Source: Calditrichia bacterium (GTDB lineage Bacteria > Calditrichota > Calditrichia > RBG-13-44-9 > J075). Taken from it: a DNA stretch of 40,358 nt. Below, piece by piece: positions 16,301 to 40,358 of this stretch. How positions within the stretch are numbered: position 1 is the first letter of the stretch; the number at the start of each line of letters is the position of its first letter. Both the position numbers and the translations under genes were made by a program. Location of the stretch: the NCBI GenBank assembly GCA_028284905.1, contig JANQQU010000046.1, positions 1 through 40,358 on the forward strand. The letters are read 5' to 3'. Below the pieces are notes generated by a model, which did no database searches, was not told where the DNA came from, and worked only from the letters and a program-made list of their open reading frames with translations.

Positions 16301-16676
16301 AATTCCCTCTTTTAGTTAGCAGGCATTTAAAGATAACCGCAGAAATTCTTATTCGGAATGTAGACTGGCCGAGAATGGCGAACAATCACATTTTTCTCAC
16401 AAATCGATGACAATTTTATAGCACCAGGAAGAGTTCTGAATGGTAATGTTTATAATATTCAAATACTTGAGTGCTGTTCAATTACCGGGAGGCGAATCGA
16501 ATTCTTGACGTTGTTCGCCAGGCCTTTTGGCATTTGGGGTCAGTTTCAATGCGGAAAATTTACAATCATTCAGCTAAGAGCCTTGATAAATAACGATTCC
16601 AGAAAATTTATATGTAACAATATTGTATCAACCTCGTTATATCGTGAGCAATAGAAATAAACTCGGAGAAGATGTA
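16301..16676. other. 376-nt divergent intergenic region
   Basis: No gene is seen. It lies between the divergent lipoprotein and the secreted repeat protein and should hold both promoters. A TTGACG at 16505-16510 lacks a good -10 at proper spacing; TTGATA near 16583 is followed by TTTATATG about 20 nt later. Neither is convincing enough to call. Confidence 0.4.
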
Positions 16677-18413
16677 ATGAACACTAAATTTACTATCAGA
16701 TTGATGTTACTTATTTTTGTGGGTGGCATGATTACCACCCCACAATTAAAAGCGCAGGATGTACTGGTTACGATCGATGATATTATTCCGGAAGAAGTTC
16801 ACCTGGCCGGATTTAGCCTGAGCAGCGACCAGGAAATTGAAATTGAAGCGCTTGGCACTCACCAGAGAAGCCGTCGCTGGTCCACTTCCAGTGCCTGGAT
16901 TCTTGATGCAGATACCCGCGAAATCGTATGGGAACTGACCGATGCAAATTCCAGTTGGGTCGATCGTGGCCTGCGGGAATACAAGGACAGAGTATCCCTG
17001 AATCGCGGACGATACGAAGTTTACTTTTCTTATTTCCCCGAAAATTACAACATTGATGGCTGGAGCATTACCCGCTTCTTCTTCCGCCGTCATGATGACG
17101 ATGACGATGATCGTCGCCGCCGTTATCGTGATGATTATGAAGAATTCCAAATCACTGTTAAAGGCGATGGCCGTGGGTATGATGAATCGGAAACGATTGC
17201 ATATCGTGAAGGCATCCAGGAAAAAGCAATGGTCTCTCTGCTGGCCAGCCGCGATGATCGCTATGAGAATCAAGGTTTTAAATTGAAGAAAGATATGGAC
17301 GTTGTTGTTTACGCCCTTGGTGAAGCACGCGATGATGGTACCTATGATTATGGCTGGATTATGAACGCCGATACCCGTGAGAAAGTATGGCAGTTCAAGT
17401 ATCGTTACAGCGATCATGCCGGTGGCAGCGAAAAGAACCGGATGATCCGTGAAACTGTTTCTCTGCCGGCAGGTAACTACAGCGCCTTTTACGTGACAGA
17501 CGATTCGCATTCCCCGCGGGAATGGAATACTGCGCCGCCGTATGACCCGGAATTCTGGGGACTGTCCATTTACGCTCAAAACGACAATGATCGGGGCGCC
17601 ATCTCTCTTTACGATTACGAAGACATGCCGGAAAAAAATGTGATTGTTAATTTCACCGGATTGCGGGACGATGAATATGTCTCCAAAGGCTTTACCCTGA
17701 AAAAAGATATGGACGTACGCATCTACGCCCTTGGAGAAGGTTCCCGGGGAGAGATGTATGACTATGGTTGGATTGTTGATGCGAAGACCCACAAGCGCGT
17801 TTGGGAAATGAATTACCGTAATACCGATCATGCCGGTGGTAATAGCAAGAACCGTCTGGCCGATGAAGTGATCGAACTTGAAAAAGGCAATTATGTCGCT
17901 CATTTCGTCACCGACGATTCTCACTCCTATCGCCGCTGGAATACTTCCCCGCCGTTCGATCAGGAAAAATGGGGAATAACCATTCTAGGTGTGGGTGATA
18001 ACTTTCGGGCCAGTGATGTGACCGAATATAATGAAGACAGTGATAACAGCGACGTAATGGCGAGAATTACCCGCGTTCGCGACTGGGAAACCCGGAAAGA
18101 GCGTTTCGAAATGAAAAAAGACGGCAACGTGCGTGTTTACGCCCTGGGCGAAGGCAGCGACGGTCGGATGTATGATTACGCCTGGATCGAAAATGCCAGC
18201 ACTGGTAAAGTTGTTTGGGAAATGACCTATCGCAGAACCGACCACGCCGGTGGCGCACGTAAGAACCGTGAATTCAATGACACTATCTACTTGAAGTCCG
18301 GTGAATATCTGCTGATTTACGAATCTGATGACTCCCATTCCTTCAAGGATTGGAACTCCGCGCCACCGCGGGATCCGGCCAACTGGGGTGTCACTATTTA
18401 TAAAGCAAATTAA
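16677..18413 (+). CDS. Secreted four-repeat protein of unrecognised family
   Basis: 578 aa from ATG 16677 (GGAGAAGATGTA upstream); the frame opens earlier but lacks a ribosome site there. A signal peptide ends near LKAQ-DVL. One divergent N-terminal repeat is followed by a charged linker (RRHDDDDDDRRRRYRDDYEE, near 138-158) and three close repeats of about 137 residues. Each repeat has F-x-[LM]KKD-x-[DN]V-x-[VI]YALGE, YDY-[GA]-WI, a T-x-x-x-VW strand, a TDHAGG- or SDHAGG-x-x-KNR block, DDSHS, and WN-[TS]-[AS]-PP...WG. It is beta-rich and likely periplasmic or surface. I know no family name. A terminator follows the stop. Confidence 0.8.
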   Translation: MNTKFTIRLMLLIFVGGMITTPQLKAQDVLVTIDDIIPEEVHLAGFSLSSDQEIEIEALGTHQRSRRWSTSSAWILDADTREIVWELTDANSSWVDRGLREYKDRVSLNRGRYEVYFSYFPENYNIDGWSITRFFFRRHDDDDDDRRRRYRDDYEEFQITVKGDGRGYDESETIAYREGIQEKAMVSLLASRDDRYENQGFKLKKDMDVVVYALGEARDDGTYDYGWIMNADTREKVWQFKYRYSDHAGGSEKNRMIRETVSLPAGNYSAFYVTDDSHSPREWNTAPPYDPEFWGLSIYAQNDNDRGAISLYDYEDMPEKNVIVNFTGLRDDEYVSKGFTLKKDMDVRIYALGEGSRGEMYDYGWIVDAKTHKRVWEMNYRNTDHAGGNSKNRLADEVIELEKGNYVAHFVTDDSHSYRRWNTSPPFDQEKWGITILGVGDNFRASDVTEYNEDSDNSDVMARITRVRDWETRKERFEMKKDGNVRVYALGEGSDGRMYDYAWIENASTGKVVWEMTYRRTDHAGGARKNREFNDTIYLKSGEYLLIYESDDSHSFKDWNSAPPRDPANWGVTIYKAN

Positions 18414-19195: not shown

Positions 19196-19407
19196 AGATC
19201 ATTCCCAATAAATACGATTTTTGCATGATAAAAATTCCGGAAGCATTAAAACGACAATACTATGATAAACGAATGGGGCGAAGGCACTATCTGCCCATTT
19301 GCAAATCTGCCAATAAACAAATGATGCAGAGAAATCCAGGCGACCCAGATATTGCCTAACCACGCTTGCCCCATCTTTAAACTCGAACCCGGAGCACTCA
19401 ATTGCAG

Positions 19408-22400
19408 ATGGAAAGAAACAACATCCCGGTCATCTTCCTCGCCTTTGCGAATGACCGTGACAGCAGCGGCGGCTATCTGCGCAACCTGCCGCGCGAATTG
19501 GAGGGCATCCGCAACGCCCTTGCGCTGGCCCGCCGGGAAGGCTTATGCAAGGTGGTGGAACGGGCCAACGCCACCCTGGAGAATATCTTCGACGTTTTCC
19601 AGGAATACCGGGAACGCATCGCCATCTTCCATTACGGTGGCCATGCCGATAGCTTCCGTCTCCTCCTGGAACAACGGGATGGGCGGGCGGAAGCCGCGCA
19701 CAGCGCCGGGCTATCCCCTTTCTTGGCTGGTCAGCAGGGACTGCAGCTGATTTTCCTCAACGGCTGTTGTTCCCAGCAGCAGGCGCGGGAATTAACCGCG
19801 GCCGGTCTGCCGGTGGTGATCGGCACCTCCGGAAAAATTGCCGATGCAGTCGCTGCCGATCTTGCCATTCGTTTCTACCACGGCCTTGGGGAAGGACTCG
19901 CCCTGGAACGCTGCTGGGCGAATGCCGAGCAGCAGGTGCTTAGCCGCAACGGCGACGGAGCGGCCCGCGATCTGCAGCTGACCCGGGAAGAAGCGCTGCC
20001 CGATCGCTTTCCCTGGGAAATCTATTACCGCCCCGGCGCGGAAATAGTGAAAAGCTGGAACTTGCCTGGCGCTGCCAAAAATCCGCTGGCCGGACTGAAA
20101 ATTCCCGAAACATACTACCGCCAACTGCCCGCGCAGCCGTTTATCGGGCTGAACTATTTTCGCCGGGAAGATGCGGGCATTTTCTTTGGGCGCGGGCAGG
20201 CGATTTATCAACTCTATCAGCTCCTCCACGGGGTGCATCCGATTATTCTCTTTCACGGAAAGTCCGGGGTGGGTAAATCGTCCCTGCTTGCTGCCGGACT
20301 GCTGCCGCGCATCGGAGAAAGCCAGGCGATCTGTTATTTCCGCCGCGATCCGGAGAAAGGGTTGAGCGCCACGCTGCGCGAAGCGCTGCAAGCCGAGGCT
20401 GCCGTAGTTAACGAGTTCGACCTTTCCGCCGCCTGGCAGGCCCGGGAAGCCACGGAAGGGCGTCCGCTGATTGTCATCCTCGATCAAGCCGAAGAGGTCT
20501 TTACCCGTCCGCTGCCCCATGAGTGGGAAAAACCGGGTGAATGGGAAATCTTTCTCGCCGACCTCATCACTTTGTTTGGTCCGGGCGCCCGCTCCCCGCG
20601 TGGAAAGCTACTTCTTAGCTACCGGAAGGAATATCACCCGGAGATCAATAAGGGATTTGCAGAAGCGCGTTTATCCTGTGCACCGTTTTTCCTGCCGCAG
20701 CTGGACCGCGCCGGGATTGTTGAAGCTATCGAAGGGATTACCCGCGATGAGCGATTGCGCCAGCGCTATCCCCTCACGATCGAGGAGAACAGCGAAGGCT
20801 ACCTGCCCGGCATTATCGCCGATGATCTCCTCGAAGACCGCGATTCCCCGATTGCCCCAATGCTGCAAATCCTCCTCAGCAACCTCTGGCAGCAGGCGAC
20901 GCTGGCCGGTAGCAGCAGCACTCATTTTAAAATCGAAAACTATTACCAACTGCGCAAGCAGGGCCTGGCAATGGAGGATTTCCTCCGCCAGCAGTTCGAA
21001 AAACTGCGCGACTGGCGGGCGGAGGTGGTCGACTCTGGACTGCTGCTCGACTTGCTCCATTACCACACCACCAATATGGAAACCGCCGGCAGCCGTTCCC
21101 GGAGGGCGGTTGAGCAAGCCTATGCCGAAAAAACCGATATCAAAACATTAATAGAGCAATGCCAGGGGCGCTACCTACTTACGGAACGGGAGGATGGCGA
21201 GCAGATCAGCCTCGCCCACGATACCCTTGCCCCGGTAATCCGCCAGCGGTATGAGCTTTCCAACCAGCCGGGACAGCGAGCCGCTCGTCTGCTCAAAGCG
21301 CGGTTGCGCGATTCGAAAGCGGATAAGAAGCAGGAGGCTTCGCTTAACCGCCGGGAAATCCGCATCGTCGAAAAAGGTCGCGCTGGTATGCGAGCTTTCA
21401 GTGATGAAGAAAAGACGCTCTTGAAAAAGAGCCGACGCCGCCAGCAGCGCTTGCAATTGGCGGTTTTCGGCATCGCAACTGTTTTTGTTCTGCTTTTATG
21501 GTTGGGGATTGACACAATTCAGCAACAAAGGGATGATCTAGCATATAAAGATGCGCTTGCAGCATTAATCGATATTCTAGAAAAGGAATTCTATTACGAA
21601 TCCGAAAAAAATCCCAATGGGAGTCGCTTAGGTTGGTTTTTAACCCAAGCGGACAGTTTTGCGGTTATTAGCACCGAATGGCGAAAAATTCTTCCTAGGA
21701 ACGACCAGCTAATTGCCAGTCTCACTGACAGTGTTTACTGGCAACGGGGCGGCTCTTTAACGGCAATAACCTACGCTGAAGCCCTCGAATTTATTGATCA
21801 ACTTAACCGTGAAAATTTTGCTGGATATAGTGACTGGAGGCTTCCCAATTGGAAAGAGGCGATTTTATTGATTCGGAGGGATTCAACTTTTAATGGTCTT
21901 TACAAAAACCCTCTTTTTGATGTGCGGCAAGAACGGATTTGGACCATTGATCAGGCAACAAAGCGTCGACAATGGTGTTTGGATTTTCTTCGGGGGCAAA
22001 TCCGTGGTGTAGTAACTGATGATACTTTGTTTTTCGCTCGGGCAGTACGAACAGAATCTAAGATTGATGGATACTCTTTTCGTTTAGATCAGTTAGTTTC
22101 TGAAATGATCATGGAAAAAGGGTTTTATAACAGTGATAGAAATCGAGGTGGGAAAGGGATCAATCGGGAGGAATTTCCTTTGCAATTGCAGAGAGGTGAT
22201 TCGATTGTTTATGACCAGGCCACGAATCTGTTCTGGCAACGTAACGGGTCGGATATTTCCCTGCCGTTTGATGCTGCAAGAGCTTATGTTCAGAATCTGA
22301 ACGATACTGTCTATGGAGGATTTCAGGATTGGCGTTTGCCGACACTGGAGGAAGCGTTGAGTTTGATTACTACTCAAGATACTAGTACATATAGACATAC

Positions 22401-22563
22401 AAGTCGTCTATTTGATCGGCTAGGTTGGATTTGGACATCTAGTCAATCTGGGCGTGGCTCTCGCGTGTGGCATGTAAGTTTCTACGATGGTAAGTGTGGC
22501 AGCAGTAATCTTAGTAGCAATATTTATGTGCGCGCAGTTCGTTTTGGACAATCATCTCCATAA
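19408..22563 (+). CDS. CHAT protease-STAND ATPase-TM-tandem C-type-lectin-like (DUF1566) protein
   Basis: 1051 aa from ATG; a TTG two codons earlier sits closer to GGAG and could be the true start. Domains: CHAT caspase-like protease (about 1-200; His79 in HYGGHAD, Cys120 in FLNGCC); STAND P-loop ATPase (about 250-610; Walker A GKSGVGKSS near 284, Walker B VILDQAEE near 356); basic stretch then one TM helix (about 682-702), giving N-in/C-out by the positive-inside rule; two DUF1566/Lcl_C modules (about 728-903 and 913-1051). The second ends WIWTSS...VWHVSFYDG...YVRAVR, the C-type-lectin fold seen in DGR targets. Inferred role: lectin modules sense a periplasmic ligand, STAND switches, CHAT cleaves a partner. 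Base composition drops sharply near 21500. Confidence 0.88.
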   Translation: MERNNIPVIFLAFANDRDSSGGYLRNLPRELEGIRNALALARREGLCKVVERANATLENIFDVFQEYRERIAIFHYGGHADSFRLLLEQRDGRAEAAHSAGLSPFLAGQQGLQLIFLNGCCSQQQARELTAAGLPVVIGTSGKIADAVAADLAIRFYHGLGEGLALERCWANAEQQVLSRNGDGAARDLQLTREEALPDRFPWEIYYRPGAEIVKSWNLPGAAKNPLAGLKIPETYYRQLPAQPFIGLNYFRREDAGIFFGRGQAIYQLYQLLHGVHPIILFHGKSGVGKSSLLAAGLLPRIGESQAICYFRRDPEKGLSATLREALQAEAAVVNEFDLSAAWQAREATEGRPLIVILDQAEEVFTRPLPHEWEKPGEWEIFLADLITLFGPGARSPRGKLLLSYRKEYHPEINKGFAEARLSCAPFFLPQLDRAGIVEAIEGITRDERLRQRYPLTIEENSEGYLPGIIADDLLEDRDSPIAPMLQILLSNLWQQATLAGSSSTHFKIENYYQLRKQGLAMEDFLRQQFEKLRDWRAEVVDSGLLLDLLHYHTTNMETAGSRSRRAVEQAYAEKTDIKTLIEQCQGRYLLTEREDGEQISLAHDTLAPVIRQRYELSNQPGQRAARLLKARLRDSKADKKQEASLNRREIRIVEKGRAGMRAFSDEEKTLLKKSRRRQQRLQLAVFGIATVFVLLLWLGIDTIQQQRDDLAYKDALAALIDILEKEFYYESEKNPNGSRLGWFLTQADSFAVISTEWRKILPRNDQLIASLTDSVYWQRGGSLTAITYAEALEFIDQLNRENFAGYSDWRLPNWKEAILLIRRDSTFNGLYKNPLFDVRQERIWTIDQATKRRQWCLDFLRGQIRGVVTDDTLFFARAVRTESKIDGYSFRLDQLVSEMIMEKGFYNSDRNRGGKGINREEFPLQLQRGDSIVYDQATNLFWQRNGSDISLPFDAARAYVQNLNDTVYGGFQDWRLPTLEEALSLITTQDTSTYRHTSRLFDRLGWIWTSSQSGRGSRVWHVSFYDGKCGSSNLSSNIYVRAVRFGQSSP
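22426..22563 (+). other. Candidate variable region A of the C-terminal lectin domain
   Basis: From the codon at 22447 to that at 22519 (25 codons) 20 end in C or T. At the same aligned positions residues differ freely from the second gene while the frame residues (VW, V-x-F, G, C, N, YVRAVR) are kept. The segment ends in the invariant block starting at 22525. The pattern fits former A-to-N mutagenesis of AAY codons. It is weaker than in the second gene. Confidence 0.5.
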
Positions 22564-22601: not shown

Positions 22602-22652
22602 AAAATCCGGGAAGGATTTTATACCGCGTTTCCCCGGGAAGGGGAAGTTTTT
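22602..22652 (+). terminator. Tandem hairpins with identical GGGAA loops after the CHAT-STAND-lectin gene
   Basis: Hairpin 1 is AAAATCC-GGGAA-GGATTTT (22602-22620). Hairpin 2 is TTCCCC-GGGAA-GGGGAA (22630-22646) followed by GTTTTT. The pair recurs at 40255-40305. The second is a plausible intrinsic terminator. Its place behind a putative variable region also resembles the DNA cruciforms that help DGR target recognition. Confidence 0.7.
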
Positions 22653-29297: not shown

Positions 29298-32200
29298 ATG
29301 CAGAACACAATACACATATTGACTTTTGTATTTGTATTATTTTGTGAAATTCTCCTTAACTGGCATGGGAACCTGTATGCACAAAACGACGGTGTACAAG
29401 CCAAATACATCGCCAAGTTGGATTCGCTAAGTCACTCCGATATCGATCTCGATAATCGAATTCATTCTATTATTGCATTTTTGGAGCGTTCTCCCTCAAG
29501 TGAACAAGGATATTTAGCGTTACTGGATTGGTTTATCCAGAATGGGCAAATAGATTCAGCCGAAGTTTTTTTTAGAAAAAATTCAGCGAACCCGATTAGC
29601 GCACAGTATTGTTTTTGGATGCTTGGAAAAATATGGATTATGAAAGGGGATTTTGAAAAAGCCTGCCGGGAATTTGCCAAAGCATTAAACGCTACCTCGA
29701 ATCCTTCTCTTTTCTTATTAAAAGAGTTTGTGGAAAACGACCATAAGAAATTTCAAAGGTATGGTGAGGAAACATTTCTAAAGACGTTCCAGGTGTCAGA
29801 GCAATTAAAAAATGTCATAGCGGCTTTTTATGCTTATTATAAAAAAGAATATACCCGCGCACTTAAAATCTTTGATAAAGAGATTTCCGCAGATTTTAAA
29901 AATAATTTGGTGATTCTGGAAAGATGGGGATTTTGTTATAGGCAAAATAAAGATACGCTTAAAGCTGATAAGACATGGGAGAAGGGACTTTCCCTCGCTG
30001 AGAAATCTCAAGATCCTTATTATAAAGCTCGATTTTTAACTTACTTAGCACAACTTAAGTCCAATAATCCTCAGTTACGTGACAGAACCTTACAGCTATA
30101 TAAGTCTGCTTATGATGTTGCAAAACACATTCGTTATCATCGTCGAATACAATTGCTTTGTAGTTATCTGGGATTTCTCTATTTCAAGATGGACAATTAT
30201 TCCGAGTCTGCAAAATATTTTCTGGAAGGGATTGATATTGCTGAAAGATATATGGATAGTTCTGCCCTGATAAATATGTCCAGAGGTCTTGCCAATACAT
30301 ACTATTTTGATGGGTGGTACCATAGATCTTTGAAAGTAACCGAGAAAAGTGAAATTATTGCTCGAGAAAAGAAGAGAACTAAACCGCTTCTAAATGTTCT
30401 TCTGGATAAATCAAATGTTTATGTAAGCTTAAAGCAGTTAAGGCTTGCCAGAAATACTTTGCAGGAAGTCATTGTTACTGCTCAAAGAAATGATTTGCCA
30501 TATTATGAAGAAACTGCTAATGCTAAAATTGGGCACATTTTACTGCTAAACGGGAAAATGGAATTAGCCAGAGCAGCGTTCAAAAAATATATAATTTTCC
30601 TTGAGAAAAATAAACCGGAGAAAGATCCTTCATGGTGGATTGAAAGAATTGGTAAAACCTATGAAAAATCAGGGGATTTTGAGAAGGCGAAACAAAAGTA
30701 TCAGGAGGCTTATGAAGGTGCGGCTAAGAAAAAGGCGACCATTCAACAGGCCTGGTATCTACTTGATATTGCAAATATACTGGTAAAACAGGATAGCATG
30801 GAAAAAGCAGCAAACTTTTTTGAGCTTGCCAGAAAAAATGCTTCGGATAAAACTGAATTACTCTGGGAAATTTATTTTGGTATTGGAAATAGTTATAAAG
30901 CTGCCGGTGATATTGATAGTGCGATAAAGAATTATAAAAAAGCAGCTAATTATTTTGAATTGACTCGCCAGACGCTGCGCTCTGATCAAATGAAAATCGG
31001 ATACTTTATTGAGGCACATCCATTATACCAAAGCTTGATAAACTGCTACTTTCAGCGTTATATGGAAAGCAGGCAAGATGAGGAATTGGTTGAGTTGGTT
31101 AATTATTACCAATTAAGTCGGGCTCGGGCCTTACGAGAATTAAAACCTCTTTCCGATAATAGTAAATTAAGCCAGAATTATTTGGTCAAAAAAGATAAGT
31201 TGCAATCTCTTCAGCGACAGTTACGTTTGAAAATCCAGAACTATGATGCTATTGATAAAATTCAGGATTTGTATTCACAAATCGAAATTGAACGATTCTC
31301 AATTATAGATGCACAATTGCAATTACTCGAGAATTCTCCGGGAAAAGATATACGACAGCCGGAATTTTCTGAACTAACGGATACCATTAAAAAGTTAGAA
31401 AAACGAAATTTGGGATTATTGTTATTCCATATTTCCGATGAAGTTTCTTTTGCTGTTGTTATTACCTCGGATGATACCCAGGTTGTAGAACTCAATGTAA
31501 CGCCTGAGTTTTTGAAAGATTCCGTGACTCAATTAATGGAACCGTTTTACAATGTAGATGATAAGTCTATAGATTCAGTTAAATTCGCAGCAAAAACAGC
31601 CTATGATCTCTACTGCCAATTGATAAAGCCTATAGAGGAAAAAATTTCTGATTTGCCGGAACGCCTTTTAATTGTCCCGGATAATGCACTTTTAAACTTG
31701 CCTTTTGAACTCCTCCTCACAAAAAAAACGCCTTCAGAGTATTATCTCCCCGGTGATAAACCGGTTTATGCTAACGATTTTCTCGTACATCGGTATATGT
31801 TTACTTATAGTCCTACCGCCGCCGTTTTGAATAATGATCATGCTACTTTAGCTAAGAATCCTAAGATGCTTATTTTATCTAATCCATTTGATCTGAACTC
31901 CGGGAGTCAGCCCCAAAAATCTGAAGAACAAAAAGAATATGAAAAAAATACACTTCTAAGAACCGGTTTAAGCTTTGCATCTTTACCGGGTGCTGTACGA
32001 GAGGCGCGCAGAATAAAATCTATATACCCTGATGCCAGGGTTATCAAATATCATAAAGCAACTACAGACACCCTGCTTAAGGAAGCCCCCGATCAGCATA
32101 TTATACATATTGCCACTCATGGTATTGTTGACTCAACCTTTGATTCTTTTTCTGGTATTGTACTGGCAATGGGAAGTGATTCAAGCGATGATGGATTACT

Positions 32201-32681
32201 ACAGGGTTACGAAGTTGGGGACCTAAAACTTAATTGTGAATTAATTACACTGAGTGCGTGTGAAACAGGACGTGGCCAAATAGTTGCGGGTGAAGGTATT
32301 TTAGGATTGCCGCGGCTATTTTTAGGGGCCGGTGCAAGATCTGTTTTAATGACGCGCTGGAAAGTCGATGACAGTTTTTCAGCAAAGTTAATGCCGGAAT
32401 TTTACAATCAACTATTAAATTTTCAGTTACCTGCATCGGTCGCGTTAGCAGAATCGAAACGGATATTGTTGAAGAAAGCGATCGAACAAAATAGTCCGAA
32501 TATGTATAATGCACATCCGTTTTATTGGGGGGCATTTGGGCTCTATGGCGATCCGGGGGTGGACAGGACTTTAATTCCCGCAAATTGGTCGGCATTGCTA
32601 ATGATATTGGCCGTATTGTTAAGTGCAATATTGTTAATATTCGGATTGAGATTTTTACTTAAAAACAAATCATTTCAGTAA
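29298..32681 (+). CDS. TPR-CHAT protein, secreted or membrane-tethered
   Basis: 1127 aa. A signal peptide ends near LYA-QN. About ten TPR-like hairpins fill 60-600 (for example YLGFLYFKMDNYSESAKYFL, YEKSGDFEKAKQKYQEAY, FGIGNSYKAAGDIDSAIKNY). The CHAT domain occupies about 750-1095: LLIVPDNALLNLPFELLL, THLHG-like His941 in IHIATHG, and Cys988 in LSACETGRG, followed by GEGILGLPRLFLGAGARSV. A C-terminal TM helix (SALLMILAVLLSAILLIF) anchors it. If the signal peptide is cleaved, the CHAT protease lies in the periplasm. CHAT proteases cut specific partners, as in the Craspase and gasdermin systems. AT-rich compared with the CHAT-STAND genes. Its position in the island operon suggests it acts as effector or sensor. 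Confidence 0.88.
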   Translation: MQNTIHILTFVFVLFCEILLNWHGNLYAQNDGVQAKYIAKLDSLSHSDIDLDNRIHSIIAFLERSPSSEQGYLALLDWFIQNGQIDSAEVFFRKNSANPISAQYCFWMLGKIWIMKGDFEKACREFAKALNATSNPSLFLLKEFVENDHKKFQRYGEETFLKTFQVSEQLKNVIAAFYAYYKKEYTRALKIFDKEISADFKNNLVILERWGFCYRQNKDTLKADKTWEKGLSLAEKSQDPYYKARFLTYLAQLKSNNPQLRDRTLQLYKSAYDVAKHIRYHRRIQLLCSYLGFLYFKMDNYSESAKYFLEGIDIAERYMDSSALINMSRGLANTYYFDGWYHRSLKVTEKSEIIAREKKRTKPLLNVLLDKSNVYVSLKQLRLARNTLQEVIVTAQRNDLPYYEETANAKIGHILLLNGKMELARAAFKKYIIFLEKNKPEKDPSWWIERIGKTYEKSGDFEKAKQKYQEAYEGAAKKKATIQQAWYLLDIANILVKQDSMEKAANFFELARKNASDKTELLWEIYFGIGNSYKAAGDIDSAIKNYKKAANYFELTRQTLRSDQMKIGYFIEAHPLYQSLINCYFQRYMESRQDEELVELVNYYQLSRARALRELKPLSDNSKLSQNYLVKKDKLQSLQRQLRLKIQNYDAIDKIQDLYSQIEIERFSIIDAQLQLLENSPGKDIRQPEFSELTDTIKKLEKRNLGLLLFHISDEVSFAVVITSDDTQVVELNVTPEFLKDSVTQLMEPFYNVDDKSIDSVKFAAKTAYDLYCQLIKPIEEKISDLPERLLIVPDNALLNLPFELLLTKKTPSEYYLPGDKPVYANDFLVHRYMFTYSPTAAVLNNDHATLAKNPKMLILSNPFDLNSGSQPQKSEEQKEYEKNTLLRTGLSFASLPGAVREARRIKSIYPDARVIKYHKATTDTLLKEAPDQHIIHIATHGIVDSTFDSFSGIVLAMGSDSSDDGLLQGYEVGDLKLNCELITLSACETGRGQIVAGEGILGLPRLFLGAGARSVLMTRWKVDDSFSAKLMPEFYNQLLNFQLPASVALAESKRILLKKAIEQNSPNMYNAHPFYWGAFGLYGDPGVDRTLIPANWSALLMILAVLLSAILLIFGLRFLLKNKSFQ

Positions 32682-32903: not shown

Positions 32904-34958
32904 ATGACAGCCATTACCGATGCATCATCAAAAAGAGCTTTACTGATTGGCATCAATAAATATCCGAACTTCGGGAATCGGGCGCAGCTTAAAGCCTGCA
33001 TAAACGATGTAAATTTGATGAAAGGTGTATTAACAGGCCGGTTCGATTTTGCACTGGAGAATATAACTATTCTGACCGATGAACAAGCAACAAAGGAAGC
33101 TATTTTACAAGCTATTGATGAATTGATTGATGCCACCCGGCAAGACGATATTATTGTAATTTATTATAGTGGGCATGGCTCTCAAATGCGGGACAGAGAG
33201 GGGGATGAACCGGATGGCTATGATGAAACGATTGTACCTTATGATAGCGGACGGGCGCCCCACCCTAATCGCGATATATCAGATGATGAAATCTATTTTC
33301 GCTTACTGCGCTTAAGCCAAAAAACCCCGAATATTACCCTGATTTTTGATTGCTGCCATTCCGGGACAATTTCTCGCGATGCTTTTGGGGTAAATTCTCA
33401 TAGCGTGGAGTTAGATGACAGGCCGGTTGCCGAACTCCCTCCTTCCTTAATCGACCCGACTTTAAAAAAGCAAAGACAGCAAAAGGCATCTGATAACCGC
33501 TGGCTGCCTATTGGAAAACGGCATACTTTGATCGCAGCCTGTAAAGCCGGTGAGCTATCTTATGAATTGCCGGTTAGTATGCAAGGTAAAAAAATACCTT
33601 ATGGCACCTTGACATTTTTTCTTTGCAGGGAACTAATGATCGCTAATGCCGGCACGACTTACCGGGATATTTTTAGTAGCGTGAGTTCCCTGGTTACTTC
33701 ATACAACTATGATCAACATCCGCAATTGGAAGGGGCACTGGATCGGGAAATCTTTGGTGTGAGAGATCTTGATACAATGCGTTTTATAACTATCTCCCAG
33801 CGTCGTAAGAAAGATGTAATTTTGAAAGCCGGCGCTGCGCAAGGATTAATAGTTGGATCGCAATGGTCTGTTTATTCGCGTGATACGAAGCGTGTGAATG
33901 ATGATACTTCCAGCCTGGGTTCGATCGAAGTAACTGAAGTAGATGTGCTAGAGTCGAAAGCTACTGTGATTACAGAAGCATCGGATGGAGCGATTACTGC
34001 CGGCAGTCGTGCCGTGGCAGAAAAACTAATTAACGTTGACATGGAGGTAACAGTCCAGGTTGATATACCGGCGAAGTTCAATGCAGAAAGAAGAGAGATG
34101 ATTGCGGAACTTGAGGATTCCGCCCGCTTAAAAATCAGTGAGAATAAGGAAGATGCCGATTTTTGTATTTATCTTATTCCCCCAAGAAATGAAGCCGCTG
34201 AACCTGTCCCGCAATTGGGCAGTTTAAGCGAAGCAAAATGGGTCGTGATCGGTTTACATGGTCAGCCCGTAATGCCAATCTATAAGGTTACCGATACCGA
34301 TACCGATGCTACTGAAAAAATTCGGGAAAATTTAGAAAAATGGGTATCCTACCGCCATACATTAGCTTTAAAAAATACTATGGCTCATAATGAGCTTCAG
34401 GGCAAAGTGGCATTTGAGTTGATGCGTCAAACGTCCGATAAGAAATGGGTAAAAGCGGTAGCGGCGAAAAATAAACAATACCCAGTATTCAGAGAAGGGA
34501 AAAACATTGGCTTTCGCGTTATTAATAATGGGAAGTTACCGGTTTACATCACTATACTCGATTTTGGGTTAACTGGCGCGATTACATTGCTGGAACCGAT
34601 GGAAGGCTCAGTAAAGGCTTTAGAACCCGGCAAATCCATAAAAATTGGTATGAGAGAAGGTGATGATATAATATTAGGCAAACCGGATAATTTCCCGTTT
34701 ATACCTTATCCGAAAGGTTCCCCGCCATCCGGTGGAATTGAAACTGTCAAGATGTTTGCTACAACCAGGCCTACCGATTTCAACATTTTTTTTCAGGAAG
34801 GGGTTAGAAGCATCGACCTACCTGAAAAAATTGGGTTTGAAGCGGAATTATTTAAATTGTTTAGCTTAACCCAACTGGGCATAAAAAGCCAATTTACAAA
34901 ATTGTTTGGTAAAAAAGATTACTGGACAACAGTAGAACGTGTATTCTTTTTGGAATAA
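32904..34958 (+). CDS. Caspase-like (peptidase C14) protein with C-terminal DUF4384-like domain, paralogue 1
   Basis: A 684-aa protein. The caspase/metacaspase domain (about 10-290) starts KRALLIGINKYPN and has the catalytic His91 in YYSGHGSQM and Cys151 in FDCCHSGT. DETIVPYDSGR and SDDEIYFRLLRL are typical of type I metacaspase-like proteins. A linker (about 295-380) precedes a beta-rich C-terminus. In it, VFREGKNIGFRVINNGKLPV, then ITLLEPMEGSVKALEPGKSI and ETVKMFATTRP resemble DUF4384 modules often fused to bacterial caspases. No TM helix or signal. Probably cytosolic; caspase activation would follow proteolytic or oligomeric triggering. Close paralogue of 35420-37495. Confidence 0.9.
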   Translation: MTAITDASSKRALLIGINKYPNFGNRAQLKACINDVNLMKGVLTGRFDFALENITILTDEQATKEAILQAIDELIDATRQDDIIVIYYSGHGSQMRDREGDEPDGYDETIVPYDSGRAPHPNRDISDDEIYFRLLRLSQKTPNITLIFDCCHSGTISRDAFGVNSHSVELDDRPVAELPPSLIDPTLKKQRQQKASDNRWLPIGKRHTLIAACKAGELSYELPVSMQGKKIPYGTLTFFLCRELMIANAGTTYRDIFSSVSSLVTSYNYDQHPQLEGALDREIFGVRDLDTMRFITISQRRKKDVILKAGAAQGLIVGSQWSVYSRDTKRVNDDTSSLGSIEVTEVDVLESKATVITEASDGAITAGSRAVAEKLINVDMEVTVQVDIPAKFNAERREMIAELEDSARLKISENKEDADFCIYLIPPRNEAAEPVPQLGSLSEAKWVVIGLHGQPVMPIYKVTDTDTDATEKIRENLEKWVSYRHTLALKNTMAHNELQGKVAFELMRQTSDKKWVKAVAAKNKQYPVFREGKNIGFRVINNGKLPVYITILDFGLTGAITLLEPMEGSVKALEPGKSIKIGMREGDDIILGKPDNFPFIPYPKGSPPSGGIETVKMFATTRPTDFNIFFQEGVRSIDLPEKIGFEAELFKLFSLTQLGIKSQFTKLFGKKDYWTTVERVFFLE

Positions 34959-35419: not shown

Positions 35420-37495
35420 ATGACAAGAACCAACGACGGGCAAAATAAACACGCTCTGTTAATTGGTATCAACGATTATCCAAATTTTGATAACTGGGCT
35501 CAACTATATGGTTGTATAAATGATGTGACCCTGATGGAGAAAATACTGAAAGAGAATTTTCAGTTTCCCCCGGAAAATATTTCGTTATTAAAAAACGAAG
35601 GCGCTACCCGCGATAAGATTTTATTCGCCATGGACGAATTAATTGAAAGGGTAGGAGTTGATGATATCGTTGTTATTCATTATAGCGGTCATGGATCGCA
35701 GATGACAGATAGAGAGGGGGATGAGCCGGATGGGATGGATGAAACAATTGTGCCCTATGACAGCGGGCGTTCTCCTAATGAAAACCGGGACATAACGGAT
35801 GATGAGATTTACGTCAAATTATTGCGTTTAAATGAGAAAACGCCGTATGTGACGTTCATTTTTGATAGTTGCCATTCCGGCACTATTACCCGGGATACCT
35901 TTGGAGCAAAAGCACGACGGGTTGAGCCGGATGACCGGCCGATCGATGAATTACCAGTTTCTTCTGTCAGCAGGGAAGTTGCCCTGGCGGGCGAAATTAA
36001 TCCTGGCCCCAGTGGTTGGTTACCATTAAGCAAGCGCTATGTGCTGATTGCCGGATGCCATGATGAAGAATCTTCTTATGAATACCATACTGGCTCCGGT
36101 GAGAATAAACTTGTCCATGGCGCTTTGACATATTTCCTGAGTCGGGAATTAACCCAGGCTGTTTCAGGGACAACTTACCGGGATGTTTTTGAACAGGTAA
36201 GTCCCCATATTACTTCTAAATTTGCTCGGCAACACCCACAAATGGAGGGGGCCAGGGATCGAGAGTTGTTTGGTATTAAGGAGATAGAACCAATGCGTTT
36301 CGTGCCTGTTACATCTCGGAGAGCATCCAAAGTGACCCTGGGGGCTGGAGCGGCACATGGAATGACTATTGGTTCACAATGGGAGATATACCCACAAAAC
36401 GTCAAAAAAGTAAATAATGAAACGCCAGTTAATGGCCTGGTAGAGATTGAAAAAATATTAGCTACTTCAGCTGAAGCTAAAATTATTACGGAAGAAAATG
36501 AGGGTAGCATCCTGGCTGGAAATCGCGCAGTGGAGACGCTGCATAATTTTGGTGAGATGAGATTTGCGATTGAAATTTCACCATCGGAAAATTTTTCCGA
36601 AGAAATTAATATGTTGAGCGAAGCGGTTCAAAACTCTCCTTTACTAAGATTAGTTTCTCCAGGAGAAGAAGCAAAAGCAAAGGTTTATATTATTCCGGAG
36701 AGGAAAAAAAGCGAAGATAGCGAGCCATACGGCCCCGTTCCCCAATTGAATGATGTTCCTAAGCCGATCTGGGCTGTGATAGGAGAAGATGGTCAACTTT
36801 TGATGCCAAACCATTCGGTTACAGAACATAATGTGGTTAGCACGCTGTGTAAAAATTTTGAAAAAATTACCCGTTTTCGTCAATTGTTAAGGTTACTAAA
36901 TCCAGATAAACAAGATCCGCTTATCGGCAAAGTCGATTTTGTTCTCAAACGACGCTCAAATAATGGGGAATGGATTAATGCAGAACCTGCGAATGAAAAT
37001 GGTATGGTTCTTTACAATGAAGGGGAACAATTCGGGGCTGAGATTACAAACAGATACTCTAAGGGTATTTATGTGAATGTTCTCGATTTTGGATTAACCG
37101 GAAGAGTTTCTTTAATACATCCGGTTGAAGGTTCGAATGAAAAATTGGATCCAGGTAAAACTATTAAAATAGGGATGCGTCAAGGTGATGAATTAACTTT
37201 GTATAAGCCAGATAATTTTCCTTTCTTGCCTGAGGATAAGGAAATAAATATAGAAGGCGGAATCGAAACGCTTAAATTGTTTGCGACTTTAAGTCCCACG
37301 GATTTTAGCTGGCTTCAGCAGGAGGGCATGCGCTCTATCCCAGTAACTCGGAGCTCGGAAGCTCCTTTAAATTGGCTTTTCAGAACAGCTTATCAGGGGG
37401 CAATGACTCGCGATACAAGGCGACGCGTTAAAGTTCTTGATAAAGATGAATCCTGGATAGTTTTGGAGAGATCATTTTATTTAATGTGTCAATAA
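35420..37495 (+). CDS. Caspase-like (peptidase C14) protein with C-terminal DUF4384-like domain, paralogue 2
   Basis: 691 aa, colinear with paralogue 1. His91 (HYSGHGSQM) and Cys151 (FDSCHSGT) are kept, with the pre-Cys residue Ser instead of Cys. Shared blocks include REGDEPDG-x-DETIVPYDSGR, TTYRDVF, YVNVLDFGLTGRVSLIHPVE and GKTIKIGMRQGDELTLYKPD. GGGAGGAATC gives a strong ribosome site. The caspase part is more alike than the linker (about 380-450), the usual pattern when a duplicated protease keeps its mechanism but changes its regulation. It ends 42 nt before the CHAT-STAND gene. Confidence 0.9.
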   Translation: MTRTNDGQNKHALLIGINDYPNFDNWAQLYGCINDVTLMEKILKENFQFPPENISLLKNEGATRDKILFAMDELIERVGVDDIVVIHYSGHGSQMTDREGDEPDGMDETIVPYDSGRSPNENRDITDDEIYVKLLRLNEKTPYVTFIFDSCHSGTITRDTFGAKARRVEPDDRPIDELPVSSVSREVALAGEINPGPSGWLPLSKRYVLIAGCHDEESSYEYHTGSGENKLVHGALTYFLSRELTQAVSGTTYRDVFEQVSPHITSKFARQHPQMEGARDRELFGIKEIEPMRFVPVTSRRASKVTLGAGAAHGMTIGSQWEIYPQNVKKVNNETPVNGLVEIEKILATSAEAKIITEENEGSILAGNRAVETLHNFGEMRFAIEISPSENFSEEINMLSEAVQNSPLLRLVSPGEEAKAKVYIIPERKKSEDSEPYGPVPQLNDVPKPIWAVIGEDGQLLMPNHSVTEHNVVSTLCKNFEKITRFRQLLRLLNPDKQDPLIGKVDFVLKRRSNNGEWINAEPANENGMVLYNEGEQFGAEITNRYSKGIYVNVLDFGLTGRVSLIHPVEGSNEKLDPGKTIKIGMRQGDELTLYKPDNFPFLPEDKEINIEGGIETLKLFATLSPTDFSWLQQEGMRSIPVTRSSEAPLNWLFRTAYQGAMTRDTRRRVKVLDKDESWIVLERSFYLMCQ

Positions 37496-37537: not shown

Positions 37538-40216
37538 ATGCCTGACAAGACCAACATCCCGGTAATCTTCCTGGCCATCGCCGACGGCCAGCGCGACCTG
37601 CGCTATTTACCAAAGGAACTGAAGGCATTGAAGCGTATTCTGGAGAAGGCCGAGGAGCATAGGCATTGCGAAGTCGTGCCTTGCACCAATGCGAATTTGA
37701 CAGATATTTTCGACATTTTCGAAAAACAAAAATACCGCAATCGCATCGCCATCTTCCATTTTGCCGGCCATGCCAACGGTTTTGAATTGCTCCTGGAGGA
37801 TCGCAATGGAAAAACAAAAGCGGCCCATAGCGCCGGACTGATCCCGTTCTTAGCCAGCCAGCACGGATTGAAGCTGGTCTTCCTGAACGGCTGTGCCACC
37901 GAGCAACAGGCGCGGAATCTCAGCAATGCCGGGGTGCCGGCGGTGATCGGCACTTCCCAAAATATACAGGACGATCTCGCCTACGACCTTGCCCGGCGGT
38001 TTTACAGTGGCCTTGCCGAGGGGCATCCTTTGGAGGAATGCTGGAAGGCGGCGGAAAAGGAAGTGATTACTAAGGTTGGAGTGGGGAATTTCCGCGATAT
38101 GTATCGCCAGAAAAATACGGGGCAGGACCGCTTTCCCTGGCATCTCATTCCCTGCCCCGGCGCAGAATCGGTTTTAAAGTGGAACCTGCCCGCCGCAGTG
38201 GACGATCCCCTCTTCGGTCTGCCGGAAATCCCACGCACCCACAACTTGCCGGTAGCGCCCTTCCGCTTTTTGACCCGTTACCAGCGGAAAGATGCCGAGA
38301 TTTTTTTCGGGCGCGGTGCCGATATCCGCGAACTCTACCAGATGGTCAGCGAGCCGCATGGCGAGCCTTTGATCCTCTTTCACGGCCAGAGTGGCGTGGG
38401 GAAATCTTCCCTCCTGGAGGCGGGATTACTGCCCCGTCTGGAAAACTCTCACCAGGTGCACTACCTGCGCCGTGATCCGCAAAAAGGATTGCTGGAAACC
38501 CTGCTCGGCGTTTTTCCGCAGGGGAAAGCAAGTAAAGGGGATTTGGCAATCCACTGGCGGGCGTTCGAAGCAGAAAACGACCAGCCCCTGCTGATTATTC
38601 TCGACCAGGTGGAAGAGGCAATCACCCGCCATCTGCACAAACTGCCAAGCGAACTGGACGATTTTTTTGCCGCACTGGCCCCCCTGTTTCATTCCCCGCA
38701 AAGCTATCCGCGCGGCAAACTGATTTTAGGCTATCGGAAGGAATATCATCCCGATATTCAGAAATATTGCGCAGAATATAACTTACCCTGTAACGATTTA
38801 TTTTTAGCGCATCTCGACCGCCGGGCGGTTATGGAAGTGGTGACTGGTTTAAACAGCCATCCGGCTTTAAGCAAGAAGTATAAGTTAGATGTGGAAGAAC
38901 CCCTGCCGGCGATGATTGCCGACGATCTTCTCGCCGACCCGCACTCCCCGGTCGCCCCGGTGCTGCAAATCCTTCTGGCAAAGCTCTGGGAACAGGTGAA
39001 AGGAAATCACTCACGGCAAAAAAGCTTTACCGTCGCGCAATACCAGGCGCTGCGCCGCGAGGGGCTGGCCATGGAAACTTTTTTTCAGGAGCAGATGGCA
39101 GCGCTGGAGAAGGAAGACCCCGACCGGGTAAGGAGCGGCCTGGCGCTCGATGTTTTAAAATTTCACACCACCCCCCTGGGCACCGCGGCAAGCAGAAGTG
39201 TGGCGGAGGTAAAAAAACGCTATGCCCATCTTCCGGATATTGAAACATTGCTCAGTCGCCTGAAAAAGATTTACCTGCTCAGTGAAGGGCGGGAGAGTAA
39301 CGCTGAAAACAGCCTGGCCCATGATACCCTCGCCCCAATCGTCATTAACGAATATACTGACTCCGACTGGCCCGGCCAGCGCATCTCCCGTATTTTCGAC
39401 TTAAAACTGCGCGAGGTTGGCTTTCGCTTGAGTGAAGATTCCCCGGCCCAGTTGAAGCCATTGCTAGCAGCAGATACCTGGCAGCGGTTAAAAGATCTAA
39501 AAGTACTGACCTTCCGGGGAAAACGGCGCCTCTCCCTCGCCTTGCAAGAAATTGTCGGGGAGCAGCCCCGCCTGCTTAACCTGCTTTTGAGCGAGGTGAA
39601 AAGGGACTTTGGAGAAGATGAAAACGCCATATATTTGACCCTGGAAGACCTGAAGCTTGCAGAGAAAATAGGAGAGCAGGGTATGCGCGCCTGGAATGCG
39701 GATGAAAAGGCTTTAGTGAACCATAGCTGGCAGAAACTCAGGAATTCCGATGAATGGATGACGCGGATGATTCAAGATAAGGGATATTATGATCAGTACA
39801 GAAATCCGGACGGAAAAGGGATTGTTCATCAATACGAATTACAGGCAAAGGGACAAGTAGTGTTCGATGCAGCCAGTGGGCTAGTATGGCAGCAGTTCGG
39901 TAGTGATCAAACTCTGAGCTATGATTTAGCCAAAACCTACATCGCTCAGTTAAATAAGGATAAGTATGCCAATTACAATGATTGGCGACTACCCACTCTG
40001 CAAGAAGCGATGAGCTTGATGGAAGCGGAAAAGATGGGAAATAATCTTTATATTAATCCTGTATTTGATGCGAAACAGTTTTGGATATGGACCTCCGATC
40101 AACCCGGCGCCCACCTCGTGTGGGATGTCGATTTTTCCTTCGGTGGCTGCGACTTCAGCTCCATCCGTGGCAACTGGTATGTGCGCGCAGTTCGTTTTGG
40201 ACAATCATCTCCATAA
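37538..40216 (+). CDS. CHAT protease-STAND ATPase-C-type-lectin-like (DUF1566) protein, second copy
   Basis: 892 aa. CHAT (about 1-200): His78 in HFAGHAN and Cys119 in FLNGCAT. STAND ATPase (about 240-640): Walker A GQSGVGKSS (283-291), Walker B LLIILDQVEE (351-360), then a helical/winged region. A single DUF1566/Lcl_C module (about 755-892) has GYYDQYRNPDGKGIV, FDAASGLVWQQFGSDQTL, YNDWRLPTLQEAM and ends WYVRAVRFGQSSP. It lacks the TM helix and the first lectin copy of the gene at 19408, so all domains should be cytosolic. The variable segment lies in 40103-40177. It shares its 3' tail with the other gene. Inferred role: cytosolic sensor-switch-protease of the operon. Confidence 0.9.
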   Translation: MPDKTNIPVIFLAIADGQRDLRYLPKELKALKRILEKAEEHRHCEVVPCTNANLTDIFDIFEKQKYRNRIAIFHFAGHANGFELLLEDRNGKTKAAHSAGLIPFLASQHGLKLVFLNGCATEQQARNLSNAGVPAVIGTSQNIQDDLAYDLARRFYSGLAEGHPLEECWKAAEKEVITKVGVGNFRDMYRQKNTGQDRFPWHLIPCPGAESVLKWNLPAAVDDPLFGLPEIPRTHNLPVAPFRFLTRYQRKDAEIFFGRGADIRELYQMVSEPHGEPLILFHGQSGVGKSSLLEAGLLPRLENSHQVHYLRRDPQKGLLETLLGVFPQGKASKGDLAIHWRAFEAENDQPLLIILDQVEEAITRHLHKLPSELDDFFAALAPLFHSPQSYPRGKLILGYRKEYHPDIQKYCAEYNLPCNDLFLAHLDRRAVMEVVTGLNSHPALSKKYKLDVEEPLPAMIADDLLADPHSPVAPVLQILLAKLWEQVKGNHSRQKSFTVAQYQALRREGLAMETFFQEQMAALEKEDPDRVRSGLALDVLKFHTTPLGTAASRSVAEVKKRYAHLPDIETLLSRLKKIYLLSEGRESNAENSLAHDTLAPIVINEYTDSDWPGQRISRIFDLKLREVGFRLSEDSPAQLKPLLAADTWQRLKDLKVLTFRGKRRLSLALQEIVGEQPRLLNLLLSEVKRDFGEDENAIYLTLEDLKLAEKIGEQGMRAWNADEKALVNHSWQKLRNSDEWMTRMIQDKGYYDQYRNPDGKGIVHQYELQAKGQVVFDAASGLVWQQFGSDQTLSYDLAKTYIAQLNKDKYANYNDWRLPTLQEAMSLMEAEKMGNNLYINPVFDAKQFWIWTSDQPGAHLVWDVDFSFGGCDFSSIRGNWYVRAVRFGQSSP
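40103..40177 (+). other. Candidate DGR variable region B in the C-terminal lectin domain
   Basis: Of the 24 codons from 40103 to 40174, 22 end in C or T, the exceptions being one GTG and one TGG at conserved positions. Nearly every divergent residue (Pro, Ala, His, Leu, Ser, Phe, Asp, Ile, Arg) is encoded by NNY. This is what adenine mutagenesis of AAY codons in a template repeat produces. The region ends at TAT 40178, where identity with the other gene starts. The template and RT are not in the window. Confidence 0.6.
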
Positions 40217-40254: not shown

Positions 40255-40305
40255 AAAACCCTGGGAAGGATTTTATCCCGCGTTTCCCCGGGAAGGGGAA
40301 GTTTT
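40255..40305 (+). terminator. Tandem hairpins after the second CHAT-STAND-lectin gene
   Basis: Hairpin 1 (40255-40274) is a slightly imperfect version of the first-gene hairpin. Hairpin 2 (TTCCCC-GGGAA-GGGGAA, 40284-40300) is identical and followed by GTTTT. Same role options as at 22602. Confidence 0.7.
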
Positions 40306-40317
40306 CATTTTTTTTAA

Positions 40318-40352
40318 GTCATTGCGAGGCAGTATTTTGCCGAAGCAATCTC
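40318..40352. repeat. GTCATTGCGAGG...GAAGCAATCTC palindromic extragenic repeat
   Basis: GTCATTGCGAGGCAG, a short loop, then TGCCGAAGCAATCTC form an imperfect hairpin. Similar GTCATTGCGAG...GCAATCTC elements are widely seen between genes in several phyla. It runs close to the right edge. Confidence 0.75.
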
Positions 40353-40358
40353 AAAGGT

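Follow-up and report, generated by a model that had tools for sequence, protein, structure and literature searches.

The C-terminal end of a CHAT-STAND protein, encoded near the end of a 40,358-nt stretch of DNA from a Calditrichia bacterium, raises the question of whether its sensor was written by a diversity-generating retroelement (DGR) and, if so, where the responsible machinery resides. The stretch analysed here (the window) makes up all of contig C92 of the draft genome. Precedents for such a protein exist. Of the domains annotated in DGR targets, DUF1566 is one of the most frequent (PMC4159848, PMC6642488). STAND and CHAT proteins bearing CLec sensors diversified by DGRs have already been reported (PMC10907252), and cyanobacteria have remote DGR proteins that resemble caspases or CHAT (PMC7517822).

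Results

A CHAT-nSTAND1 protein ending in a lectin-fold sensor

The gene in question and its domains are as follows.

37538..40216, + strand, CHAT-nSTAND1-Lcl_C gene encoding a DGR-target-type protein of 892 aa (Pfam and ORF)
37592..38071, + strand, CHAT caspase-like protease domain (PF12770, E 7.6e-10)
38258..39331, + strand, nSTAND1 NTPase domain (PF20703, E 7.7e-34)
39857..40195, + strand, Lcl_C (DUF1566) C-type-lectin-fold sensor domain (PF07603, E 1.1e-19; fold match 8q4e)

Motif location in the translation reveals both members of the CHAT dyad, His78 (FAGHA) and Cys119 (NGCAT), and the Walker A motif of the nSTAND1 domain is likewise intact (GQSGVGKS at 38384-38407). This order of effector, STAND NTPase and C-terminal sensor, with its motifs intact, is that of a STAND/NLR-like receptor. 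The solved structure that best matches an AlphaFold2 model of the Lcl_C domain (mean pLDDT 73) is the C-terminal domain of Legionella Lcl (8q4e), and the matches ranked after it are other C-type-lectin folds. A DGR target is expected to carry its variable region (VR) within a C-type-lectin (or Ig) fold, and the PF07603 and structural matches place the candidate region described below inside such a fold.

Elsewhere in the same genome, the CHAT-nSTAND1 chassis bears HEAT, WD40, CHASE2 or HATPase C-termini, which suggests that the C-terminus is a swappable input. We therefore favour a reading in which the Lcl_C end is an exchangeable sensor and CHAT is the effector. Judging from this architecture and from published STAND conflict analogues, ligand-triggered activation of the protease may serve cell death or defence. 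PADLOC gave no match for the target proteins. The genes upstream also encode CHAT or caspase proteins.

29298..32681, + strand, TPR-CHAT protein of 1127 aa, neighbour upstream of the target gene (domain search)
32904..34958, + strand, caspase (Peptidase_C14) protein with SGHG and DCCHS motifs (domain search and motifs)
35420..37495, + strand, caspase (Peptidase_C14) protein bearing SGHG and DSCHS motifs, immediately preceding the target gene

Third codon positions are conserved where the sensor varies

The original prediction of a variable region at 40103-40177 drew on a run of 22 in 24 codons ending in C or T (NNY), which we reproduced from nt 40103 onwards (codon 855 in the 37538-40216 ORF), and on the lectin frame residues VW, V-x-F, G, C and YVRAVR, which are present as described. 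After WTSD, 23 of 27 codons are NNY, versus 41 of 81 in the remainder of the Lcl_C domain (binomial P = 2e-4). Among the 8,761 stretches of 24 codons in the window's main ORFs, 23 contain at least 22 NNY codons, and the highest (24/24) fall in an unrelated ORF at 16623-18413. The run by itself is therefore weak and not diagnostic, and we rejected it as stand-alone evidence of a DGR. ORF 16623-18413 has no clear Pfam domain, and its codon pattern is unexplained.

Homology with the templates of relatives, described below, shifts the variable part slightly, such that the predicted coordinates proved nearly right.

40109..40180, + strand, DGR-type VR (third-position conservation versus paralogs; A-directed differences from the template of relatives)
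40199..40209, + strand, IMH-like motif GGACAATCATC, 11 bp, exact, 3 nt past the last VRAVR codon

Stronger evidence comes from paralogs. The genome (8.55 Mb in 93 contigs) encodes 14 Lcl_C domains, and our codon alignments took in the eight main VR-type domains. Among these, positions 1 and 2 differ more within the VR than upstream of it, and third positions differ less. For the window gene (C92B) and C21b, which are CHAT-STAND paralogs on separate contigs, third positions differ in 15% of VR codons versus 58% upstream (P = 1.4e-4). Within the VR, differences at positions 1 and 2 amount to 46-50%. The C21b-C50a pair behaves in the same manner, with third positions differing at 23% in the VR versus 63% upstream (P = 3e-4). 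Third-position conservation is not significant in many other pairs, including C92B-C92A2 and several C50 pairs, suggesting that some VRs are old or derive from different templates.

Codons W+1 and W+3, which flank a near-fixed V, are NNT in all eight main VRs (8/8 each) even though the encoded residues vary. The fact that NNT is fixed while residues vary points to a template with mutated adenines and untouched third-position pyrimidines, because selection at the protein level would not produce this pattern.

The VR is followed by conserved sequence and then by the 11-bp motif. Within the Lcl_C family, 33 of the 69 VRs examined carry GGACAATCATC with at least 9/11 identity, always at the same +3 nt offset, against a random rate of 0.4%. 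The motif is translated in some genomes and lies past the stop codon in others. Its retention in both coding and non-coding settings indicates conservation at the DNA level, as expected of an initiation-of-mutagenic-homing site. Templates of relatives mostly carry GGAAAATCATC or GGAGAATCATC, which have A or G where GGACAATCATC has C. An IMH-type sequence common to the template and the 3′ end of the VR is typical of DGR targets, and the motif is accordingly annotated as a putative retrohoming site.

A second VR-like domain in the window, absent from the original prediction, lies at the end of another CHAT-STAND gene.

19402..22563, + strand, second CHAT-nSTAND1-(Lcl_C)x2 gene
22453..22527, + strand, a further DGR-type VR, located in the final Lcl_C domain of the 19402 gene (NNY 22/28 versus 44/80; exact GGACAATCATC at 22546-22556)

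The first Lcl_C domain of this gene (21727-22050) is not VR-like, with 14 of 28 codons being NNY, and the diversified appearance of the tandem is limited to its last domain. A hairpin-like element occurs downstream of both VRs.

40278..40298, + strand, hairpin-like element CCGCGTTTCCCCGGGAAGGGG
22624..22644, + strand, second copy of CCGCGTTTCCCCGGGAAGGGG

The element has four copies genome-wide, each of them in an array of Lcl_C genes on C92 or C50. We rejected it as a conserved DGR structure because its folding z-scores are inconsistent (+0.6, -2.4, +0.8), and regard it as an associated repeat only.

Relatives carry complete cassettes with adenine-only differences

In a search for relatives, the genome fell into the family that also contains Calditrichaceae MAG_33 and PRO9. 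From the VRs of the genome itself we deduced a template pattern, W-N-V-N-F-N-N-G-N-C, and ran it, along with a reversed control pattern, on 36 genomes. Matches were obtained in six genomes (Calditrichota/KSB1 and kin, one of the same family), and the reversed control gave none. In five of the six, the template adjoins a reverse transcriptase (RT), usually with a bAvd gene. KSB1 bacterium OFTM72 (L076) presents the order Lcl_C target, bAvd (771-1172), template (about 1300-1390), RT (RVT_1, E 2.4e-16), Lcl_C target and two TIR-Lcl_C targets, and the same-family PRO9 (L075) carries Avd, template, RT and one target.

Mismatches between templates and VRs were counted from gapped alignments. Across ten same-genome pairs in relatives, 146 of 259 template adenines are changed in the VR, compared with 0 of 543 other bases. 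Remote VRs of relatives, on contigs away from the cassette, also match the template perfectly at non-adenines (L110). When the VR of the window is aligned with the PRO9 template, differences fall at 18 of 24 adenines and 14 of 58 other positions (P = 3.6e-5). Template-adenine differences that spare third positions, as expected of a DGR target, are thus seen by way of the paralogs and the same-family template, there being no template from the genome itself. Together, the paralog and template comparisons strongly support the predicted DGR variable region in a CHAT-STAND sensor, and 40109-40180 is very probably a true one.

Several other observations concern these cassettes. The DGR RTs of the Lcl_C family (L075:870-2327, L076:1423-2910 and relatives) carry a C-terminal module resembling MutS domain I, and PF01624 is matched by four of five members (best E 1.3e-6). 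MutS reads mismatches through an FYE motif, and the module has a YFEAF stretch at the corresponding place. Among the papers searched, none combined the DGR name with 'MutS domain'. Two same-family loci (L158, L159) encode a second RT of 354 aa with its own bAvd, beside respiratory-complex-like genes and with no recognised template. This RT and bAvd, from same-family genomes G005 and G006, were rejected as the partner, given that the Lcl_C template of G006 adjoins the other, RT-MutS type. In KSB1 OFTM356 (L198, G041:C61, 957-1650), Avd and template are followed by a REP-associated-transposase-like protein, and no RT lies beside the template. Viral contigs (L303-L370) contain 68 stretches with the same AAY-rich template pattern, indicating that phages, too, commonly carry templates of this type, and the RT type is also present on viral contigs.

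The cassette is absent from the draft genome

The check proposed with the original prediction was a search of the genome, mainly downstream of the window, for an RT, Avd and template. None of the three was found in the 8.55-Mb, 93-contig draft, including the approximately 20 kb that we reconstructed downstream, where the following overlap extends the locus.

40266..40358, end of C92, sharing 93 identical nt with the beginning of contig C50 in reversed orientation

Past this point, the locus continues into three caspase-Lcl_C genes of C50 (L062, 501-6346), which lie in tandem and encode caspase (Peptidase_C14) proteins that run directly into one or two Lcl_C domains having VR-type ends. An AATGAC repeat closes C50; its sole other genomic occurrence is the end of C90, and neither of these reconstructed downstream contigs contains an RT, Avd or template. 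Assembly breaks fall at repeats beside VR genes and their arrays.

Three candidates from the genome were rejected. Its only RT, on C62, is of the group II intron type. A weak BLAST match at C66:128771 has no AAY-rich sequence at that place to serve as a template. Finally, a match to the RT profile is an 886-aa, MutS-sized frame that aligns with only the MutS-like end of the profile and is not an RT. The cassette, missing from the draft and its reconstructed downstream sequence, is either unassembled or lost. Rapid evolution of the sensor at the present time is therefore not shown.

Discussion

The explanation that we consider quite probable as a whole is that a DGR wrote the VR at 40109-40180, that sensors were rewritten in trans, and that ligand signals through STAND to CHAT. 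An RT using a template that codes for a SASxxWNVNFNNGNCNNNNINNNNYVRAVR-type sequence would have rewritten several sensors of the genome in trans, namely two CHAT-STAND genes in the window, one on C21 and three caspase-Lcl_C genes on C50. The VR would thereby have been placed at the ligand-binding end of an Lcl_C sensor carried on a CHAT protease and a STAND switch. Bound ligand would oligomerise the STAND module and turn on the CHAT protease, perhaps acting together with the adjacent caspases, and the outcome would be cell suicide or defence. The RT itself would lie in an unassembled gap or have been lost.

These two fates of the RT correspond to different histories. Machinery that was left unassembled, or that resides on an unbinned plasmid or phage, could still be rewriting remote VRs in trans, a reading whose chances we place somewhat short of even. 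The perfect non-adenine matches of remote VRs in relatives (L110), the templates and RTs of this type on viral contigs, and the coincidence of assembly gaps with VR gene arrays all favour it, but the assembly itself holds no direct evidence for it, and the non-adenine divergence of the genome's own VRs exceeds that of active systems. The same divergence, which has no counterpart in active relatives, suggests that no rewriting has occurred recently. It is consistent with the tentative but plausible alternative that a DGR was once present and has lost its RT, Avd and template, leaving fixed, formerly hypermutated sensors under ordinary mutation; the lack of all three from an assembly scored 100% complete points in this direction. 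Against such a fossil repertoire stand the fragmented state of the assembly (93 contigs), which breaks at repeats adjoining VR genes, and the intact appearance of all target gene parts. Moreover, C92B, C21b and C50a still have most third positions in common, so the last rewriting was not ancient. More doubtful, though possible, is the specific form in which a formerly somatic-like repertoire became frozen upon DGR loss, turning at least five CHAT-STAND/caspase-lectin genes on two joined contigs into a fixed, innate-type set.

It is less likely, though possible, that the protein is a regulatory or kin-recognition receptor instead of a suicide or defence sensor: both roles have been discussed for published DGR targets (PMC10907252, PMC7517822), but the architecture and the caspase neighbours fit death-type conflict systems. 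Least credible by far is an origin without any DGR, through ordinary positive selection or through gene conversion between paralogous sensors, codon bias accounting for the NNY richness, because, even though an unrelated window gene also has NNY runs and the nearly identical 3′ flanks of two window genes show that paralogs do recombine, frozen third positions amid turnover of positions 1 and 2 go beyond selection alone, complete cassettes of relatives show A-only differences, and the DNA motif is kept even outside coding sequence.

How, then, does the probable DGR-written sensor system compare with known ones? The DGRs of Thiohalocapsa PB-PSB1 and clade 5 (PMC10907252) likewise combine an nSTAND1 or NACHT switch and CHAT/TIR effector parts with a C-terminal, adenine-directed CLec VR. 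They differ in that their RT and template share one locus with the target and that some use an FGE-type CLec. Here the sensors are of the Lcl_C/DUF1566 kind and belong to a Calditrichota-type lineage, neither RT nor template is in the assembly, and direct caspase-(Lcl_C)1-2 fusions lie alongside. DUF1566 targets from human microbiomes and other genomes (PMC4159848, PMC6642488) share the Pfam domain and likewise have the VR at the gene's C-terminal end, but most are putative surface proteins, lipoproteins or unannotated, whereas in the present genome the domain has CHAT-STAND or caspase as its fusion partner. The remote variable proteins of cyanobacteria (PMC7517822), which are orthocaspase- or CHAT-like, resemble the present set in occurring several per genome, far from the RT, with caspase/CHAT-like N-termini; they belong to another lineage, and here no DGR RT was found in the draft genome itself. 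The Lcl_C DGRs of OFTM72 and PRO9 share the VR frame, the type of 11-bp motif and the template coding, but hold Avd, template and an RT with the C-terminal MutS-I domain, and their targets are TIR or other fusions. DGR-diversified STAND/CHAT and DUF1566 targets are thus already published, and the present case stands out for its lineage, for caspases fused directly to lectin domains and for the absence of an RT from the draft.

The finding adds a caspase/CHAT-STAND system of the Calditrichota/KSB1 lineage to the receptors diversified by retroelements. In addition, GGACAATCATC and the template pattern provide a means to recognise remote DGR targets without an RT, and the question of whether a receptor repertoire is still mutating or has been frozen after loss of its mutator becomes testable.
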